A program made the translations under genes and the position numbers. 20,175 bases of DNA from a virus. Where the stretch lies: positions 1-20,175 of the IMG/VR virus record IMGVR_UViG_3300017697_000135. The stretch is one strand, 5' to 3'. The notes below the pieces were generated by a model, which had not been told where the DNA came from, made no database searches, and saw nothing but the letters and a program-made list of their open reading frames with translations. This document shows positions 1,952 to 18,720 of the stretch, piece by piece (within the stretch, counting starts at the first letter, position 1; every line of letters begins with the position of its first letter).

Positions 1952-2439
1952 TGATGGGAATAACAACACATATCCGTACAGCAGTCACTAATGATATTCC
2001 ACATATTATAAAATTGGCTGAACTCGAATACAATCATTTTGATCAGACTACTCCATTTGATCCTTTCTTATGCGAAAGATATATTTGGACTATCTTAAAC
2101 AATCCGGAAACGGTTTCAATAGTGTTAGTTGATAACAGAGATATTCCATTTGGTTATTTGACAGGTCTTTTGGATTACATAGATTTAAGTACAGAACCAA
2201 CAGCAGTGGCTCGTCAATTTTTTGTCAATAATCCTAAACAGATGTATGGAAATAGAAATTATGGACTCGAACTTATAGCAAGTTTCGAAGGTTGGGCCTC
2301 TCACAAGGGAGCAAAGAGAACTATGATTGGTTTTAGGATGAATCCAGGCCAAAGAAGGAACTATGATAGGACTTTTAAATCAATAGATTACCAACCAAAT
2401 GTGGTCTATTACAGCAAAGATATGAAGGAAACGAAATAA
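1951..2439 (+). CDS. GNAT-like N-acetyltransferase-fold protein in the tail operon
   Basis: This 162-residue protein begins with an IRTAVTNDIPHIIKLAELEY segment, the usual first strand and helix of a GNAT fold. It continues with a VLVDNRDIPFGYLTG strand and turn, YGLELIASFEGWASHKGA (helix before motif A) and a C-terminal FKSIDYQPNVVYYSKDM similar to the closing GF....YYKK strands. The classic Q/R-x-x-G-x-G/A acetyl-CoA loop is not clear, so activity is uncertain. ATG codons lie at 1951 and 1954; I chose the first, which overlaps the previous stop. It sits between the L-like and J-like genes, the slot usually taken by the K/I tail tip genes. It could modify a virion or host surface protein. 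Confidence 0.65.
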   Translation: MMGITTHIRTAVTNDIPHIIKLAELEYNHFDQTTPFDPFLCERYIWTILNNPETVSIVLVDNRDIPFGYLTGLLDYIDLSTEPTAVARQFFVNNPKQMYGNRNYGLELIASFEGWASHKGAKRTMIGFRMNPGQRRNYDRTFKSIDYQPNVVYYSKDMKETK

Positions 2440-4499
2440 TGGGTGGTGTAGCAGATTTCATAGGAGATGTTTTTGATGGAGTCGTAGGTTTTGTAGTAGA
2501 TATATTCCAAGGCTTTATGGGTGCCTTCGGTATGAGTTTTGATACTCCGGAAATGAGTGGGCAAAGCAATTATGATGCCGTGGCAAAAGGTATCACAGTT
2601 AATAAACAATCAAATGTAGCAGGTATCCCTGTTGTATATGGTAAAAGAAAAGTAGGCGGTGTTAGAACATTCGTGGCTACCAAAGGTGAAGATAACAAGT
2701 ATCTATATATTTGTTTGGCAGTAGCAGAAGGTGAGATAAATGGTTTCACAAAGATATACATCAATGATGAAGCACAAAATATATCAAGTTTTCCTGTCAA
2801 TCCGACCAATACTACAACGGTAGATGTACCAAATGATTCAAAGTTTTTTGTAGATGGCTCAGCGAGAGCAAAATTCCAATTTTTCACAGGAACAGAAGAT
2901 CAACAATACAGCCAACTCCTAGGAGAACACGGCAATTGGGGGAGCGAACACAGATTGAGAGGTGTGGCTTATGTGGCTTGTAGGTTTGAATGGGTCAAGG
3001 CAGATTTTGCTGATGATAATTCAGGTGACCAAACATTATTCAATCCGTGGCAAGGTATTCCAGTTATCAATGTCGAGATAGAAGGTAAAAAAGTTTTAAC
3101 AAATTATCCAAATTCAGGCAGTGGGGCAAGTTTGTCCAATGCCAAAGACACAAACAATGACACATCAAGTTATGGCACAGACTATTCAAGTGGTTTCAGT
3201 TATAGTAATAATCCAGCAGACTGTTTGATGGACTATTTACGATCGCCAAGATTTGGAAAAGGACTTAATGACAACAGAATTGATTTTAAAGCATTCCAAT
3301 TGGCTCGAGCCATATGTGACACAAATAAAAACTTCAGTTCGCCATTGTCATCAGCACATTTCTTAGATTGTAATACACACATAGATGTCGAAGAAACTAT
3401 GTTCGAGAACACCAAAAAAATATTACAGACCTGTAGGGGTTTCTTACCATACACAAATGGAAAATATCAATTGAAGATCGAAGCAGGTGAAACAGCACCA
3501 GAAAACTTATTGACGATAACAGATGAAATGATAATTGGTTCTATATCCGTATCCAGTGAAGAAAAGAATGCCAAATACAATGAGGCACATATGACTTTCT
3601 CCAATGAAGAAAAACAATATGAATCAGATACGGCGATATACAAAGCAGATGGATCGACTATTAATGGTGTGGCCACAAACGATCATTTAGCAACAGATGG
3701 CGAACCATTGATATTAAAGATGGCGGCTCCGGGTATAACAAGAAGAGAAAGAGCCTTACAATATGCTGAATATATGGTTGAAAGATCAAGAAAACAATTA
3801 CAGGTATCATTCACAGCAACAACAGAAGCACAGAATCTAGTAGCAGGTGATTTAGTAATGGTAGTTCATAGATATGAACACATAGACAAAGCCACAGGCA
3901 CAGCCAAATATGATTATTTGTTTAATAGTGTAGCGAACAGTGAAGCAACAAGTTATACTAATCCTAAAAAGATATTCAGAGTGATATCACAGAAATTAAA
4001 TTATGATGGTACTGTGGATTTAATTTTATTAGAACACCAAAACTCTATCTATGATGTGAGAGTACAAAGTGAAGATAAAGATTTGAGTCCCATATCCACA
4101 ATAAGACCAAGTGTACCAACTTGGCCTGTGAAACCAACACCACCTGTTAAACTTCCGCCAGTGGCAAGTCAAAAATTCAAGATAGAAACAGCATACAATA
4201 TGGACAATGGTGTCAAGAGAGCACAGATAAGAACTAACAATGTGAGCCATTCAGATGCCTTTGCTACACATTATATCTACACACTCAAGAATGGTAGTAA
4301 TCAAGAAGATAGATTAACACCTTACCTAGACAGCAGGATCAATTATTACAATAAAATTAACAATAGTTTTCTTCCTTTCAATAGTACCATTGAAGTAAAG
4401 ATTTATAGTTTATACAACAATGGACAGAAGAACTTGGTAGAAACACAGACGGTCACAACACCAGCAGATCCAAATGCCGTCAGCAGTGGAGGAATTTAG
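2439..4499 (+). CDS. Tail tip / host specificity protein, J-like
   Basis: The protein has 686 residues, and its start overlaps the previous stop (TAATG). A G- and F-rich N-terminus of about 35 residues is followed by GIPVVYGKRKVGGVRTF and YLYICLAVAEGEI (about residues 60-105), a well-known signature of phage tail tip attachment proteins. NPADCLMDYLRSPRFGKGLN at about 260 is a second one. A proline-rich linker (PTWPVKPTPPVKLPP, about 557-573) separates the hub from a C-terminal domain that looks fibronectin-like. The protein would form the central tail tip, open the route for DNA and contact the host. It is much shorter than lambda J, so receptor binding may be handed to the separate fibre genes downstream. 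Confidence 0.85.
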   Translation: MGGVADFIGDVFDGVVGFVVDIFQGFMGAFGMSFDTPEMSGQSNYDAVAKGITVNKQSNVAGIPVVYGKRKVGGVRTFVATKGEDNKYLYICLAVAEGEINGFTKIYINDEAQNISSFPVNPTNTTTVDVPNDSKFFVDGSARAKFQFFTGTEDQQYSQLLGEHGNWGSEHRLRGVAYVACRFEWVKADFADDNSGDQTLFNPWQGIPVINVEIEGKKVLTNYPNSGSGASLSNAKDTNNDTSSYGTDYSSGFSYSNNPADCLMDYLRSPRFGKGLNDNRIDFKAFQLARAICDTNKNFSSPLSSAHFLDCNTHIDVEETMFENTKKILQTCRGFLPYTNGKYQLKIEAGETAPENLLTITDEMIIGSISVSSEEKNAKYNEAHMTFSNEEKQYESDTAIYKADGSTINGVATNDHLATDGEPLILKMAAPGITRRERALQYAEYMVERSRKQLQVSFTATTEAQNLVAGDLVMVVHRYEHIDKATGTAKYDYLFNSVANSEATSYTNPKKIFRVISQKLNYDGTVDLILLEHQNSIYDVRVQSEDKDLSPISTIRPSVPTWPVKPTPPVKLPPVASQKFKIETAYNMDNGVKRAQIRTNNVSHSDAFATHYIYTLKNGSNQEDRLTPYLDSRINYYNKINNSFLPFNSTIEVKIYSLYNNGQKNLVETQTVTTPADPNAVSSGGI

Positions 4500-5311: not shown

Positions 5312-6297
5312 TGAGTTATAGTTATCCAACAAAATTAACAGCAAGTGGATTAGTAAGTGATGTACAAGGTAAACTTGATTCACTTATTGATGTTTTTGAT
5401 TTGGCAGGAGAACCAACAAATGGACACATATTATCTTATAACTCAACATCAAAACATTTTGATGCCATAGCAAATCCGGGTGGCGGCATAGCATTATCAG
5501 ATATAAGTGTCACTGACTCAGGTGGCGATGGAAGTTTAGCATACAATAATTCAACAGGTGTTATTACATACACAGGGCCAAGTGCTAGTGATGTAAGAGC
5601 ACATTTTTCAGCAGGTGAAGGTATTGATATCAGTTCAGGTGCCATATCAGGAGAAGATGCGACAGTATCAAACAAAGGTATCGCGAGTTTTAACACAAAT
5701 CATTTTTCAGTGAGTTCAGGTGCCGTATCATTAGCAACCGGAATCAATAGTTTATCAGATGTTGATACAACAGGTGTAGCAAACAATAAAATTTTAAAAT
5801 ACAATTCATCATCATCAAAATTTGTAATAGCAGATGAAAGTGGTGGTGGCATAGCACTCACAGACATAAGTGTTAGTACAGGATCAAACTCGCACAATGG
5901 TGGATTGAGTTATAACAACTCAACTGGTGTTTTTACACATCACCCTGTAGCACCAACTTGGCTCGATCACGGCACGATAGCCATTGCTGGTAGCATAACA
6001 CTCAACTATGCCACGGCCACAATACACAGAGTTGGGGTCACAGCGGCATCATCTGGATCGATAGCATTAAACACACCAACAAATATGGAACAGGGTGCTG
6101 AAATGACTGTGATATTCAATGGTGTAGGAGCAAGTGGTCAAGATGCTGACATAACACTCAACATAACAAATTTAAAAATAGATACAAGTTTAACTTCAGG
6201 CTTTAATGTAGATTATGGTAAATGGCAAATATGGAAAATAATATATGATGGCACAAACTATTTTATGTATAAAGCGAGTAATTCGGACTTATCTTAA
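5311..6297 (+). CDS. Tail fibre-like repeat protein
   Basis: The 328-residue protein overlaps the preceding stop by one base. It is built from repeats: HILSYNSTSKHFDAIANPGG near residue 47 and KILKYNSSSSKFVIADESGG near 163, and GIALSDISV plus LAYNNSTGVITY near 58-90 recurring as GIALTDISV plus LSYNNSTGVFTH near 179-210. Such ILxYNSxSxxF and YNNSTGV units are typical of trimeric beta-rich tail fibres of marine phages. The last 100 residues differ and include LNTPTNMEQGAEMTVIFNG and a closing YGKWQIWKIIYDGTNYFMYK, like fibre head or tip domains. It is probably a receptor-binding or accessory fibre. Confidence 0.75.
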   Translation: MSYSYPTKLTASGLVSDVQGKLDSLIDVFDLAGEPTNGHILSYNSTSKHFDAIANPGGGIALSDISVTDSGGDGSLAYNNSTGVITYTGPSASDVRAHFSAGEGIDISSGAISGEDATVSNKGIASFNTNHFSVSSGAVSLATGINSLSDVDTTGVANNKILKYNSSSSKFVIADESGGGIALTDISVSTGSNSHNGGLSYNNSTGVFTHHPVAPTWLDHGTIAIAGSITLNYATATIHRVGVTAASSGSIALNTPTNMEQGAEMTVIFNGVGASGQDADITLNITNLKIDTSLTSGFNVDYGKWQIWKIIYDGTNYFMYKASNSDLS

Positions 6298-6316
6298 TAA
6301 ATATAATTAACAGGAG
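6295..6316 (+). promoter_or_regulatory. ATAAATATAAT element plus ribosome binding site before 6326
   Basis: The 11-mer ATAAATATAAT (6297-6307) lies just after the stop of the preceding fibre gene and is followed by AGGAG (6312-6316), 9 nt before the ATG at 6326. The same 11-mer recurs at 10203-10213, ahead of another structural gene. It includes a TATAAT but has no convincing -35. It may be a weak or late phage promoter element, or chance in A+T-rich DNA. Confidence 0.3.
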
Positions 6317-6325
6317 ATTTAACAT

Positions 6326-6751
6326 ATGGCTTGGGCAACAGCAGGAAATATAATTACAACCAATTTAGATGCGGCGGGAAAGTCACCGGCAGATGCTAGA
6401 CCGAATTTAAAAGCGGCATTAGATGAATTAACAATAGTATCAAACAACTTGGGCACCACAGATGGTGCGGCCAAGATAGAATCAACAGGAGTTATTAGTT
6501 CAGCAGTCACAGGAATTGGGACTACATCAGGATCACAAGATTTTAACATCACTCCAGGTTCTAAGATGGTTAATATTACAGATTTTATTAATCTTAATCC
6601 TGTTGCTTATGCTAGTTTACCAAGTTCGCCATCTAAAGGCGATATAGCATTCTTAACAACAGATGAAGATGGTGATGCTAGAAATATGCTGATAGTTTGG
6701 AATGGTACCGCTTGGACTTACATCCACGATAATAGTGCGGTAGTAGATTAA
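6326..6751 (+). CDS. Putative virion structural protein
   Basis: This 141-residue protein has its own AGGAG with a 9-nt spacer, unlike the coupled genes before it. The N-terminus contains TTNLDAAGKSPADARPNLKA and ALDELTIVSNN, a short helical start found in phage fibre-associated proteins. The C-terminal half has SPSKGDIAFLTTDEDGDARN followed by VWNGTAWTYIHDN, the 'GD.....DG...V.NGT.W' pattern common at the ends of fibre or collar proteins. No catalytic residues are recognisable. It is probably a fibre-associated structural protein. Confidence 0.6.
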   Translation: MAWATAGNIITTNLDAAGKSPADARPNLKAALDELTIVSNNLGTTDGAAKIESTGVISSAVTGIGTTSGSQDFNITPGSKMVNITDFINLNPVAYASLPSSPSKGDIAFLTTDEDGDARNMLIVWNGTAWTYIHDNSAVVD

Positions 6752-6855
6752 TGGGAAAAAAGTGTTGGAAGCATATATGCCTTATCTGTGCTATGCTTTG
6801 GCCTTTTAAAAAGTTTTGGAAATGGACCTTAAAGGGCTACAATGAAAAGGAATAA
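6751..6855 (+). CDS. 34-residue Cys/Trp-rich cationic peptide
   Basis: A short ORF starts on the last base of the preceding stop (TAATG) and ends 13 bases inside the next gene. The peptide has 3 Cys (5, 10, 13), 4 Trp (6, 17, 23, 25) and 8 Lys. A hydrophobic stretch, ICLICAMLWPF, is followed by KKFWKW. Overlaps at both ends suggest translational coupling, and the composition points to a membrane-active or membrane-bound peptide. The XhlA-like gene next to it suggests a role in lysis. There is no separate ribosome binding site, so expression depends on coupling. It could be a chance ORF. Confidence 0.5.
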   Translation: MGKKCWKHICLICAMLWPFKKFWKWTLKGYNEKE

Positions 6856-7084
6856 GGCAGTGAATAAAAAAGAACAAGAAAGACTTACTCAGGTAGAATT
6901 AGACACTAAAACAATTTCCACAGATGTACGAATCATCCAAAAAGATATATCTGTGATCAAAACAAACCACCTCAAACACATAGAAGACGATGTTAGGAAA
7001 ATAGATATGAGACTATGGGCCATATTGTTATTATTAGTGGCATCATTGTTTATTCCTTTTATCAAATCATTATGGTCGATCTAA
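6842..7084 (+). CDS. XhlA-like small membrane protein (holin or lysis accessory)
   Basis: The protein has 80 residues. AAAGGG (6831-6836) lies 5 nt before the ATG. A charged coiled-coil-like N-terminal part (residues 10-56, with TDVRIIQKDISVIKTNHLKH and IEDDVRKID) is followed by one transmembrane helix (about 58-74, RLWAILLLLVASLFIPFI). The pattern 'D...IKTNHLKHIE' and then a single C-terminal membrane span is typical of the hemolysin XhlA family, which occurs in phage lysis cassettes and assists holin and endolysin action. No endolysin is visible in this window. Confidence 0.7.
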   Translation: MKRNKAVNKKEQERLTQVELDTKTISTDVRIIQKDISVIKTNHLKHIEDDVRKIDMRLWAILLLLVASLFIPFIKSLWSI

Positions 7085-7212
7085 GGTTTGGATCACCTTT
7101 ATTTAGATTTACATTTGAAGAATACTTGACCCGTATATTAGGATATGAAATATACGAGTACGAACACCTCGATTGGTTATATGAAGAATATCTATCGATA
7201 GAACAAAGTTGA
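7072..7212 (+). CDS. Small acidic aromatic-rich protein, unknown function
   Basis: The chosen ATG at 7072 gives 46 residues and overlaps the XhlA-like gene by 13 bases. An in-frame ATG at 7015 would give 65 residues with an N-terminal hydrophobic stretch, but those bases are already used by the membrane helix of the overlapping gene. Out-of-frame readings of such sequence are often hydrophobic, so I prefer 7072. The product is rich in E, Y, L and F (FEEYLTRILGYEIYEYEHLD). No strong ribosome binding site precedes either start. It ends in a TGATG overlap with the next gene. Function is unknown. Confidence 0.5.
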   Translation: MVDLRFGSPLFRFTFEEYLTRILGYEIYEYEHLDWLYEEYLSIEQS

Positions 7213-7391
7213 TGAGAAAAAAGAAATTAAAGTTAAGAGATATCCAAGCAATAAAGACATATGATAATGTCTATTGTTTCTTCACGATGGCTTATTTGAA
7301 ACATCACGGTTGGAATAGAAAAGAAATATTAAAAGAAGCCAATTTGGTTTGGAAAGAAGGTTTATTTGAACACCTTTACAACGACAAATAA
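7212..7391 (+). CDS. Small basic protein, unknown function
   Basis: The protein has 59 residues. The ATG at 7212 overlaps the stop of the preceding gene (TGATG), which fixes the start; the TTG just before it is less likely. The N-terminus is lysine- and arginine-rich (RKKKLKLRDIQAIKTYD), followed by an aromatic middle (YCFFTMAYLKHHGW) and a helical end (NRKEILKEANLVWKEGLFEH). No known motif is seen. It is the last gene of the rightward block before the convergent gene pair. Confidence 0.55.
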   Translation: MRKKKLKLRDIQAIKTYDNVYCFFTMAYLKHHGWNRKEILKEANLVWKEGLFEHLYNDK

Positions 7392-7431
7392 TCTCCAGCA
7401 TACATACACACCAAAAACCATTTAGACCACC

Positions 7432-7459
7432 TTTAAAACCGCTCTAAGACGGTTTAAAA
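7432..7459. terminator. Possible bidirectional terminator hairpin between convergent genes
   Basis: AAACCG (7436-7441) pairs with CGGTTT (7450-7455) around an 8-nt loop, and TTT (7432-7434) can pair with AAA (7457-7459) after one A:A mismatch. It lies between the ends of rightward and leftward gene blocks, where a two-way terminator is expected. A clear run of T after the stem is missing on both strands, so the call is tentative. Confidence 0.35.
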
Positions 7460-7471
7460 AGTATAAAAATG

Positions 7472-7825
7472 CTACTTGTTGTTCTTTTTTGTAATTAATT
7501 CGCCAATGGACTCAGTTCTTTCCTTTTTCACGAACCTGTCATACATTTCCCAATATAGGTCATTGAATGGATCAATTGAACCTTTTGCTATGTCACCTTT
7601 TAATAGTCTATATAGATTACTCATCAATTGGTAATTGGTCATTTGTTTGGTATCCATATCACCAGGCTTGTATTCAAGTCCTTCAGGTATTGGACCTTTG
7701 TCTTCAGCAGATTTATATACGGCTTGTTTGGCTTCTTCTTCCGTCATTTCTCTGGAAGGAAATGCTTTGTCCTGCTTTTCTTTTATCATTTGTAATATTT
7801 GTTCTTTTGTATATTCTTTTTCCAT
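7472..7825 (-). CDS. Unknown 117-residue protein, second gene of leftward pair
   Basis: On the minus strand AGGAG (7838-7834) is followed by two in-frame ATGs. The one at 7825 has an 8-nt spacer and the one at 7831 only 2 nt, so I chose 7825. The product is charged: EYTKEQILQMIKEKQDKAF, EMTEEEAKQAVYKSAEDK, then a helical YQLMSNLYRLLKGDIAKG and FNDLYWEMYDRFVKK. Nothing in it is recognised. The ribosome binding site overlaps the stop of the upstream gene, so the two are co-expressed. Confidence 0.65.
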   Translation of the reverse strand: MEKEYTKEQILQMIKEKQDKAFPSREMTEEEAKQAVYKSAEDKGPIPEGLEYKPGDMDTKQMTNYQLMSNLYRLLKGDIAKGSIDPFNDLYWEMYDRFVKKERTESIGELITKKNNK

Positions 7826-7836
7826 TGTCATATCTC

Positions 7837-8427
7837 CTAGTTGGCCAATTCCATATAGCCTTTGTTTACGGTCTCGCATATTATTTCATAGTACTCTTTT
7901 TTCAATTTGTTTTGGTGAACCCTATCTCGCATTCTGTCTAGATGTTCAAAGATCCAGTCATTGCTTTTTTGTATGCTATGTTCAGTATGCCAGTAGGGTT
8001 CATTGTAATTGGGGACGGGACTATCATCAGTCCAAACATCTTTACCCCAATATTTTTTAAAAAACTTTTGGTTACGATCAGGTATGAATGCTTTGTCTTC
8101 ACACATTCTTTTGGCATTATAATTGCCGTACTTGGGATCAAAGAATCCCTCTTTGTTCCTGTGCTTGGTCATTTCATCCGTGTAGTCTGTTAGATCAGGT
8201 CCATAGTGTTTTTCAAGAAGTCGCATATAATCTTTTAAGTCGTTTCTCGCTTGGGCGATTACTTTACCACATTCAATTCTTCCGGTGTATGTTTCTACTA
8301 CATACGGTGTATCAGTTTTGGAATCATATCCCATTTTGTCTATTGAAGTTGGAACCAAATATTTTGTTGGAGTTTTGCCATACTTGGCTTCTTTGTATTT
8401 TGCTATCTTATATTTTATTCTGTACAT
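7837..8427 (-). CDS. Unknown 196-residue protein, first gene of leftward pair
   Basis: The start is supported by AGGAG with an 8-nt spacer and by a consensus promoter about 27 bases upstream of the start codon. The protein is rich in K, Y, D and W, with a basic start (MYRIKYKIAKYKEAKYGK), a YVVETYTGRIECGKVI segment, GFFDPKYGNYNAKRMC and a helical end (EHLDRMRDRVHQNKLKKEYY). No membrane span is visible. I do not recognise the family. The only other gene in its transcript is also unknown. Opposite orientation and its own strong promoter suggest an accessory cassette within the late region. Confidence 0.7.
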   Translation of the reverse strand: MYRIKYKIAKYKEAKYGKTPTKYLVPTSIDKMGYDSKTDTPYVVETYTGRIECGKVIAQARNDLKDYMRLLEKHYGPDLTDYTDEMTKHRNKEGFFDPKYGNYNAKRMCEDKAFIPDRNQKFFKKYWGKDVWTDDSPVPNYNEPYWHTEHSIQKSNDWIFEHLDRMRDRVHQNKLKKEYYEIICETVNKGYMELAN

Positions 8428-15670: not shown

Positions 15671-15790
15671 ATGAAATTTCAAGATTGGTTATTGAACCAA
15701 AACATCACAAGACAAGATTACCTAGCAAGAGATATCGAAGATCAGATTGATCTCATATCCAGATATCTATTAGGAGACGATTATGCCTAA
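15671..15790 (+). CDS. Small 39-residue acidic helical protein
   Basis: AAGGAGG (15656-15662) is 8 nt upstream of the ATG, one of the strongest ribosome binding sites in the window, so translation is likely. The product is KFQDWLLNQNITRQDYLARD followed by IEDQIDLISRYLLGDDYA, predicted all helical. It overlaps the next gene by 8 bases. The strong site may mainly serve to start translation of the coupled HTH gene downstream. Function is unknown. Confidence 0.6.
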   Translation: MKFQDWLLNQNITRQDYLARDIEDQIDLISRYLLGDDYA

Positions 15791-16193
15791 AGATAAAGAA
15801 AACCGAGAGAAAAAAGGTAATTTTGAAGAAGAATACAAAAGAAAACAAGAAAAATGGGGCACTATGACCAAAGAAGGTCTCATAGTGGGTAGGGGTGACA
15901 ATAAAAGGGTTATTCCACCAGATGAAGTGTATAAATTAGCGGCTCTCCATTGTAATTACCAAGAAATAGCGGATTGGTTTGATATCAAAAGGGAAACCTT
16001 AAAGTACAACTTTCGTGATTTGATACAAAAAGCATATTCAGAGACCAATCAAAGGTTGAGAAGAGCCCAAATTGAAACGGCATTGAAGGGAAACCCAGTG
16101 ATGCTTATTTGGTTGGGAAAGAATATGTTGAATCAGAGTGATAATCCAGTAAATAATGAAAACAATCAACCATTACCGTGGACTGAGGATTAG
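15783..16193 (+). CDS. HTH protein, possible terminase small subunit
   Basis: The protein has 136 residues. A charged N-terminal tail (residues 1-40) is followed by PDEVYKLAALHCNYQEIADW and FDIKRETLKYNF (about 46-77), a helix-turn-helix of the type used for 'step' recognition. RRAQIETALKGNPVMLIWLG and KNMLNQSD (about 93-120) follow. The combination of an HTH with 'R..Q...A..GN..M.IWLGK..L.Q.D' is common in phage proteins annotated as terminase small subunit. Those bind the packaging site and load the large subunit, which is not in this window. A gene regulator is the alternative. Confidence 0.65.
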   Translation: MPKDKENREKKGNFEEEYKRKQEKWGTMTKEGLIVGRGDNKRVIPPDEVYKLAALHCNYQEIADWFDIKRETLKYNFRDLIQKAYSETNQRLRRAQIETALKGNPVMLIWLGKNMLNQSDNPVNNENNQPLPWTED

Positions 16194-17318: not shown

Positions 17319-17936
17319 ATGTATGATTCATTTATGGATGTATATCCAGAAGATCTAAAAGAAAAAAAGATAAACCCGGGTGAGTTCTGTGAAAACGGTG
17401 ACTTGGGTTATAGAATAACCAGAAGATCACAACCGGTTTGGACAACAGCCAAGGACCTTTTCGATAGTATGGTCAATTTAAGTGACCTAGCACAATTCAA
17501 TCCAGATTTATTAATCTTAAGAGAAAGATTAGGAAAGAATGTTTTTGAAATAACATTCCAAGCAGGTTATGAATCAGGTAAAGAAGCCACAGAAGAAAAT
17601 CTATTCTTAGGTACATTTTGGTTCACTAAAACTATGTTAGGCAGACTTATTAAAAAGTTAGAACAAGGTATGTTGAACATCGAATTAAAGGTGGATAAGA
17701 AGGACATAGAAGAATATGAGGCAGGTGGTGCCAAAGAAAAATTCTATCCATTGATGGTGAAAGATGTTAGAAGTCTAGATGGTGATAACATAAAAGGTGA
17801 TTTCAAGATAATGGGACCTGTAAAAAGATTATCAGCAGATGGCAGTTCCAAGACCAATATGATGACCACAACACCAATTGACTTGGCCAAATATTTTAGA
17901 TACATCTATAAGCAATGGCCGGGTGGGGAGATATAA
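17319..17936 (+). CDS. Unknown 205-residue protein
   Basis: The start is backed by a promoter and AGGAG. The protein has an acidic N-terminus (DSFMDVYPEDLKEKKINPGE), a segment FDSMVNLSDLAQFNPDLLIL, an aromatic FEITFQAGYESGKEATEENL and a helical FWFTKTMLGRLIKKLEQGML. The C-terminal part contains KFYPLMVKDVRSLDGDNIKG. No metal site, nucleotide-binding loop or membrane span is seen. It precedes the sigma/alpha-like regulator and is probably in the same transcript. Confidence 0.65.
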   Translation: MYDSFMDVYPEDLKEKKINPGEFCENGDLGYRITRRSQPVWTTAKDLFDSMVNLSDLAQFNPDLLILRERLGKNVFEITFQAGYESGKEATEENLFLGTFWFTKTMLGRLIKKLEQGMLNIELKVDKKDIEEYEAGGAKEKFYPLMVKDVRSLDGDNIKGDFKIMGPVKRLSADGSSKTNMMTTTPIDLAKYFRYIYKQWPGGEI

Positions 17937-17937
17937 T

Positions 17938-18720
17938 ATGACGAAGAACTACTATAGGAACTTGACACCAGAAGCAAAAAAGAGGAAGATTGAAAACACC
18001 AAAAGAAATTATGAAAAACGGAAAAAGGAAAACTATGCCCTAGGTCTAAGGGCAGACGGTCAAGTGAGAAAAGCCAGACCAAAAATGACACCAGAAGAGA
18101 GTGCCAAAAAGATCAAAGAATCACAGTTAAAATACAGAAACAAATTCATAGCCAAAGGTCTAACGGCTAGTGGTCTAGAGAGAAGAATCCCAGATTATTT
18201 TTTCTCCACAGGCAAGACATTAAAGGAATGGCAAGGACTTCTAAAAAATGGAGAAATAGAGTACAAAGATCTACCCGAAAAGATCAAGGCAGTCATATGG
18301 GATCCGGCTGTTCCTAAACTGAAGCCCAGCAAAGTGAGAGATGAGACAGGCCTTACATTAGAGGAGTGGGGCAAAAAGTATAACATAACTCGTGAGGCAG
18401 TGAGACAACTTAAGAACAAGTGGGGCACGATAAATGATGAATTGATGATGAATAGAGGCAAATCGGGTGGTGCCCCATATTGGAAAGTGACAACAAATCC
18501 TTCATCGATGGAATATAGGACTAATATGATGCTCCAGATCACTTTAGTGAAAATAGTCTCTAGAGATCCTAGATTTAGATGGGTCAAGACCATAGAAGAT
18601 GTGTGTTTAATATCAGACGGAACATTAGCAACGATCTATAGTATGGGTCCGAAAAAGATCAACTTATTAAGGAAAATAGAAAATGACAAAAACATAGAAG
18701 GAGAAAAGAAATATGGATAA
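17938..18720 (+). CDS. Putative transcription regulator: sigma region 4-like HTH plus alpha-CTD-like segment
   Basis: The ATG at 17938 follows GGGGAG (17925-17930) with a 7-nt spacer; an earlier in-frame ATG at 17878 lies inside the preceding gene and is rejected. The 260-residue protein has three parts. Residues 9-85 hold two basic units (TPE...Y...GLxAxGxxRxxxP). Residues 140-158 (TLEEWGKKYNITREAVRQL) closely resemble sigma70 region 4.2 (TLEE.GK.(F/Y).(V/I)TRE.(I/V)RQ(I/L)). Residues 217-247 (KTIEDVCLISDGTLATIYSM, GPKKINLLRKI) resemble the helix-hairpin-helix of the RNA polymerase alpha C-terminal domain. Sigma regions 2 and 3 are absent, so it is not a full sigma factor. It probably binds promoters or host polymerase. 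Confidence 0.7.
   Translation: MTKNYYRNLTPEAKKRKIENTKRNYEKRKKENYALGLRADGQVRKARPKMTPEESAKKIKESQLKYRNKFIAKGLTASGLERRIPDYFFSTGKTLKEWQGLLKNGEIEYKDLPEKIKAVIWDPAVPKLKPSKVRDETGLTLEEWGKKYNITREAVRQLKNKWGTINDELMMNRGKSGGAPYWKVTTNPSSMEYRTNMMLQITLVKIVSRDPRFRWVKTIEDVCLISDGTLATIYSMGPKKINLLRKIENDKNIEGEKKYG

Follow-up and report, generated by a model that had tools for sequence, protein, structure and literature searches.

Our results indicate that P0001, the product of a gene at positions 17938 to 18720 (+ strand) of a 20,175-base IMG/VR virus fragment (the whole of which is referred to here as the window), is most likely a member of a small, previously unnamed family of modular helix-turn-helix (HTH) proteins. 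The core of its HTH is sigma70 region 4.2-like, a resemblance supported by profile searches and residue mapping, and P0001 is not a sigma factor. The original prediction had the protein pair two polymerase-derived modules, this HTH and a helix-hairpin-helix like that of the RNA polymerase alpha subunit C-terminal domain (alpha-CTD); to the extent that sequence can decide, the alpha-CTD half is incorrect. The likeliest reading makes P0001 an accessory DNA-binding protein of a marine phage, mostly ordinary in character.

The P0001 gene, its surroundings, and its distribution

A tape measure gene is represented in the window by its end; the window also contains tail genes, long repetitive tail-fibre-like open reading frames (ORFs), a small-terminase-like gene, and then small genes. 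The tail protein at 2439 to 4499 is closest to proteins of the pelagiphages HTVC026P, HTVC111P, HTVC202P, and HTVC112P (about 32 to 34% identical). The small-terminase-like gene upstream of P0001, for which TerS is a working name (15783 to 16193), has a weak PHROG match (E = 0.047) and precedes the gene for the large terminase (TerL) in relatives; the latter lies within a few kilobases past TerS in related contigs, and no large-terminase match was found within the window. Elsewhere in the window, an acetyltransferase-like gene (PHROG 1249) is present between tail genes at 1951 to 2439, a place annotated in HTVC026P and HTVC112P as toxin-activating lysine-acyltransferase or RTX toxin acyltransferase family protein; two overlapping minus-strand ORFs (7472 to 7879 and 7837 to 8427) lie amid a plus-strand region, and for the second of these contig L007 has a relative at its left end; and the 93-residue product of 19065 to 19346 matches PF12843 (QSregVF_b) at 32.9 bits, over the cut-off, with a weak match to a PHROG annotated as DNA polymerase exonuclease subunit.

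The P0001 ORF comprises 260 codons plus a stop and is tightly packed between its neighbors. Its ATG lies 1 base past the stop codon of the upstream gene (17934 to 17936), its 3' end overlaps the downstream gene, which starts at 18713, and a Shine-Dalgarno-like GGGGAG (17925 to 17930, + strand) is located 7 bases 5' of the ATG. The gene is present as originally predicted, as are the letters quoted for it: TLEEWGKKYNITREAVRQL at residues 140 to 158, TIED at 218 to 221, and GPKK at 237 to 240.

Along the protein (all features on the + strand), two copies of a basic repeat come first, delimited by local alignment of the copies with each other at about residues 9 to 45 (17962 to 18072) and 50 to 82 (18085 to 18183); none of 2000 shuffles aligned as well. 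The tandem repeat (window 17962 to 18183) reads LTPEAKKRKIEN... / MTPEESAKKIKES...GLTASG. These are followed by the HTH core at residues 134 to 160 (18337 to 18417), a KWGTxxDxL(M/L)xxR segment at 161 to 173 (18418 to 18456), and a C-terminal segment at 174 to 260 (18457 to 18717) that includes the claimed alpha-CTD stretch, residues 217 to 247 (18586 to 18678). An AF2 run on an alignment of two sequences gave a mean pLDDT of 50 and predicted a helix at residues 11 to 34, in the region of copy 1 (block pLDDT of 81 to 87); residues 170 to 260, modelled alone, had a mean pLDDT of 44.

Homologues of P0001 are rare. None was found among 50,697 phage records (tblastn, E ≤ 1), and nothing convincing beyond the proteins of the IMG/VR contigs L010 and L111 was found in genome_contigs or in searches of viral contigs with other query segments. 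As search queries, TerS alone yielded related contigs, and the neighboring genes at 17319 and 19065 yielded none. The L010 protein (3387 to 4028; 213 residues), found in contigs related through TerS, matches P0001 with E = 9e-14 and carries two tandem HTH copies, while the L111 protein (1536 to 1808; 90 residues), found with a profile of the unit, is essentially one HTH unit, 64% identical to residues 137 to 180 of P0001. The L010 copy is located downstream of TerS and the L111 copy between TerL and the portal gene, and a homologue is found in 0 of the 25 related contigs that have TerS and TerL on one stretch (tblastn, E ≤ 1e-3). This absence and the shifting position identify P0001 as a sporadic accessory gene.

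The HTH unit and the C-terminal segment

The original prediction that residues 140 to 158 match the core of sigma70 region 4.2 holds, as a resemblance, for the HTH core and not for the rest of region 4. Residues 134 to 160 match Pfam Sigma70_r4 (PF04545) with E = 4.1e-5 and 23.4 bits for the whole protein, the curated cut-off being 24.1; the HTH segment alone scores 26.7 bits, the runner-up being HTH_28 at 13.2. Sigma70_r4 is the top HTH family also for the L111 protein (20.5 bits) and the L010 protein (17 bits). Thirteen of 26 residues are identical between the HTH and Escherichia coli RpoD 568 to 593, and R152, E153, R156, and Q157 of P0001 align with R584, E585, R588, and Q589 of E. coli sigma70, residues that include -35 contacts. 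W144 stands at the position of sigma70 V576. In a phmmer search of the PDB with P0001, most chains returned were RpoD or SigA (best E = 0.016), and the profile of the four known HTH copies returned almost only sigma factors (best E = 7.6e-4). The same profile gave an hhalign probability of 96% against a sigma region 4 alignment of sequences entered by hand. The match does not extend beyond the HTH core; it begins at position 16 of 50 in the Pfam profile and at sigma column 20 of 67 in hhalign; region 4.1 and the part past the recognition helix are unmatched by Pfam and hhalign. The string LPEKIKAVIW, considered as a region 4.1, was rejected, having no profile match. Sigma regions 2 and 3, predicted from the outset to be missing, are absent from the Pfam and NCBIfam hits to E = 10.

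The four copies, from three contigs and including that of P0001, define what we call a KWGT-type modular phage HTH (a class defined in this analysis), GxxLxxW ... RxL..KWGTxxDxL, with 12 invariant columns (G, L, W, R, L, K-W-G-T, D, L, and R). The KWGTxxDxL(M/L)xxR segment is conserved in all four copies, lies outside the sigma match, and is specific to this family. R-E-x-x-R-Q is kept in P0001 and L111, and the four key positions in L010 read R-E-R-R in copy 1 and M-V-R-G in copy 2.

Repeats of a related kind occur in other phage contigs. Contig L016 encodes, next to an ATPase-like gene, two adjacent stand-alone proteins (6185 to 6724 and 6734 to 7102), the first with three tandem HTH repeats and the second with two (YKGKTYRQWAQELGVHVETIR), and in L009 the TerS-TerL interval holds a 190-codon open frame (7309 to 7878) whose otherwise dissimilar product ends in one HTH of a similar type (GKSLQEWANELGCNHECVRR). 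The KWGT HTH profile matches the L016 tandem GKTYRQWAQELGV repeats at 96% in hhalign (E = 4e-9, 30 columns), and the L016 repeats match sigma at 19%; all these profile comparisons, that with sigma included, are uncertain on such short, shallow alignments. The match to L016 equals that to sigma and also spans the invariant W and the final G, both absent from sigma, and we therefore read the unit as a phage modular HTH repeat. Its sigma-like recognition helix may reflect either convergence or a distant common origin.

Nothing comparable emerged for the alpha-CTD. Residues 217 to 247 matched nothing in profile searches, the outcome that the original prediction had named as refuting it: PF03118 had no Pfam match at E ≤ 10 to the whole protein or to C-terminal pieces alone, nor anywhere in the window, whereas 14 of 14 control genomes do match it. 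Three RpoA CTDs aligned with P0001 at an hhalign probability of 0.1%, and the PDB matches of the C terminus included a chance Pumilio match and no RpoA. An RpoA-CTD HMM built from nine sequences scored the real C terminus at -2.0 bits, with 879 of 2000 shuffles equal or better (best, 8.8 bits); this set is biased to gammaproteobacteria, a bias that the Pfam model does not have, and its E. coli, Bacillus, and Thermus CTDs were entered by hand, the E. coli one matching over its full length. By eye, P0001 has nothing that corresponds to RSxNCLKxxxI, the motif of the first alpha-CTD helix in which the R265 position lies. A second, divergent HTH copy in the C terminus (RWVKTIEDVCL against KWGTINDELM in a forced alignment) was also considered and rejected, as shuffles gave no support. 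More broadly, profile, PDB, hhalign, and shuffle searches detected no homologue or known fold for the C-terminal 87 residues (174 to 260), and this segment has no convincing counterpart in the L010 protein and none in the L111 protein. In the relatives, then, the HTH occurs once or in tandem and the C-terminal segment is lacking, and a two-polymerase-module architecture is not a property of the family.

Candidate roles of P0001

We favor, with roughly even confidence, the reading that P0001 is an accessory DNA-binding protein built of modular HTH units, most likely a sequence-specific regulator of phage transcription. Its phage is tailed, with tail genes related to those of HTVC026P and HTVC112P, and the gene sits in a variable stretch past TerS. 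The working part would be the HTH unit, carried singly (90 residues), in tandem (213 residues), or inside a longer protein (P0001). DNA binding is probable from sequence: the HTH would make specific contacts, and the two Lys/Arg-rich N-terminal repeats would bind DNA nonspecifically, adding affinity. As to role, our first choice is that it regulates phage promoters; both this and the promoter acted on are conjecture. ArpU/RinA-type late regulators also lie near terminase genes; P0001 was rejected as one of these, the ArpU/RinA NCBIfam models having no match among hits to E = 10.

The main rival to regulation arises from the DNA-binding remnant of a homing-type element, which would have the same anatomy. 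Here P0001 would be a remnant or relative of phage mobile or homing-type proteins with a GKTxxxWA-type HTH, inserted sporadically and with minor or no phage function. We consider this somewhat unlikely, and it draws on the hhalign match to the L016 repeats, which themselves match many HTH families and PHROG HNH endonuclease families (best E = 4.5e-9), on the scattered occurrence of the gene and its varying place within the terminase region, and on the different L009 protein that ends in a similar HTH between TerS and TerL. Against it, no HNH nuclease domain is among the profile matches of the P0001, L010, or L111 proteins, and the L016 repeat proteins stand alone beside an ATPase-like gene rather than a nuclease.

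The recognition-helix residues retained in P0001 and L111, the nearly exclusive sigma matches of the family profile in the PDB, and its hhalign match to sigma region 4 raise the possibility of sigma mimicry, in which a stand-alone 4.2-like HTH would read -35-like elements and compete with or recruit host RNA polymerase. We regard this as improbable. Only 26 to 28 columns match, and the unmatched remainder of region 4 includes the helices H1, H2, and H5, which contact the beta-flap (PMC2988021); at the position of the sigma valine the family has an invariant W; and mimicry is weak because the L010 copies differ at the key positions, so that specificity is not conserved. That a family of phage proteins would carry the sigma70 -35-reading helix (R-E-x-x-R-Q) outside any sigma factor and use it, singly or in tandem, on -35-like elements of the phage's own promoters, occluding or recruiting host polymerase, is a still more doubtful proposition. 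The two-module protein first proposed, in which a sigma 4.2-like HTH and an alpha-CTD-like helix-hairpin-helix would together act as appropriator or activator, has TIED and GPKK in the expected order and shares the evidence for the sigma half; with the alpha-CTD signal absent by Pfam, PDB search, hhalign, and shuffle test, and a poorly modelled C-terminal segment that neither homologue shares, we judge it very improbable. We found no evidence that P0001 touches RNA polymerase.

The claimed polymerase mimic accordingly drops from the list of surprises, leaving a small family of modular HTH proteins that phages related to pelagiphages encode in their terminase region. The case also shows that a sigma-4.2 profile match in a phage protein can stem from a modular HTH unit instead of a sigma factor, a point of importance for automatic annotation.

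Comparison with known systems

With the alpha-CTD (PF03118), P0001 shares only the letters T-I-x-D and G-x-K, with no statistical similarity and no first-helix motif. With sigma70 region 4 (PF04545) it has in common the HTH core and the RExxRQ residues of the recognition helix; it differs in having no region 4.1, 2, or 3, in the invariant Trp at the V576 position, in the KWGTxxDxL that follows the recognition helix, and in the occurrence of the unit as tandem repeats. The GKTxxxWAxxLG repeats (L016 6185 to 7102; PHROGs 3377 and 7545) have the same GxxxxxW...G spacing, an HTH, a closing K.G, and a modular copy number, but they barely match sigma while matching many HTH families, and the HNH-associated ones differ from the P0001 family, which has no nuclease domain. 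The literature on proteins of the P0001 type offered background on sigma appropriation only, and between P0001 and T4 MotA/AsiA (PMC2988021) no sequence relation was seen, the likeness being limited to the type of mechanism proposed earlier. T4 remodels the host sigma region 4 through MotA/AsiA appropriation (PMC2988021), whereas P0001 merely resembles the HTH of that region.
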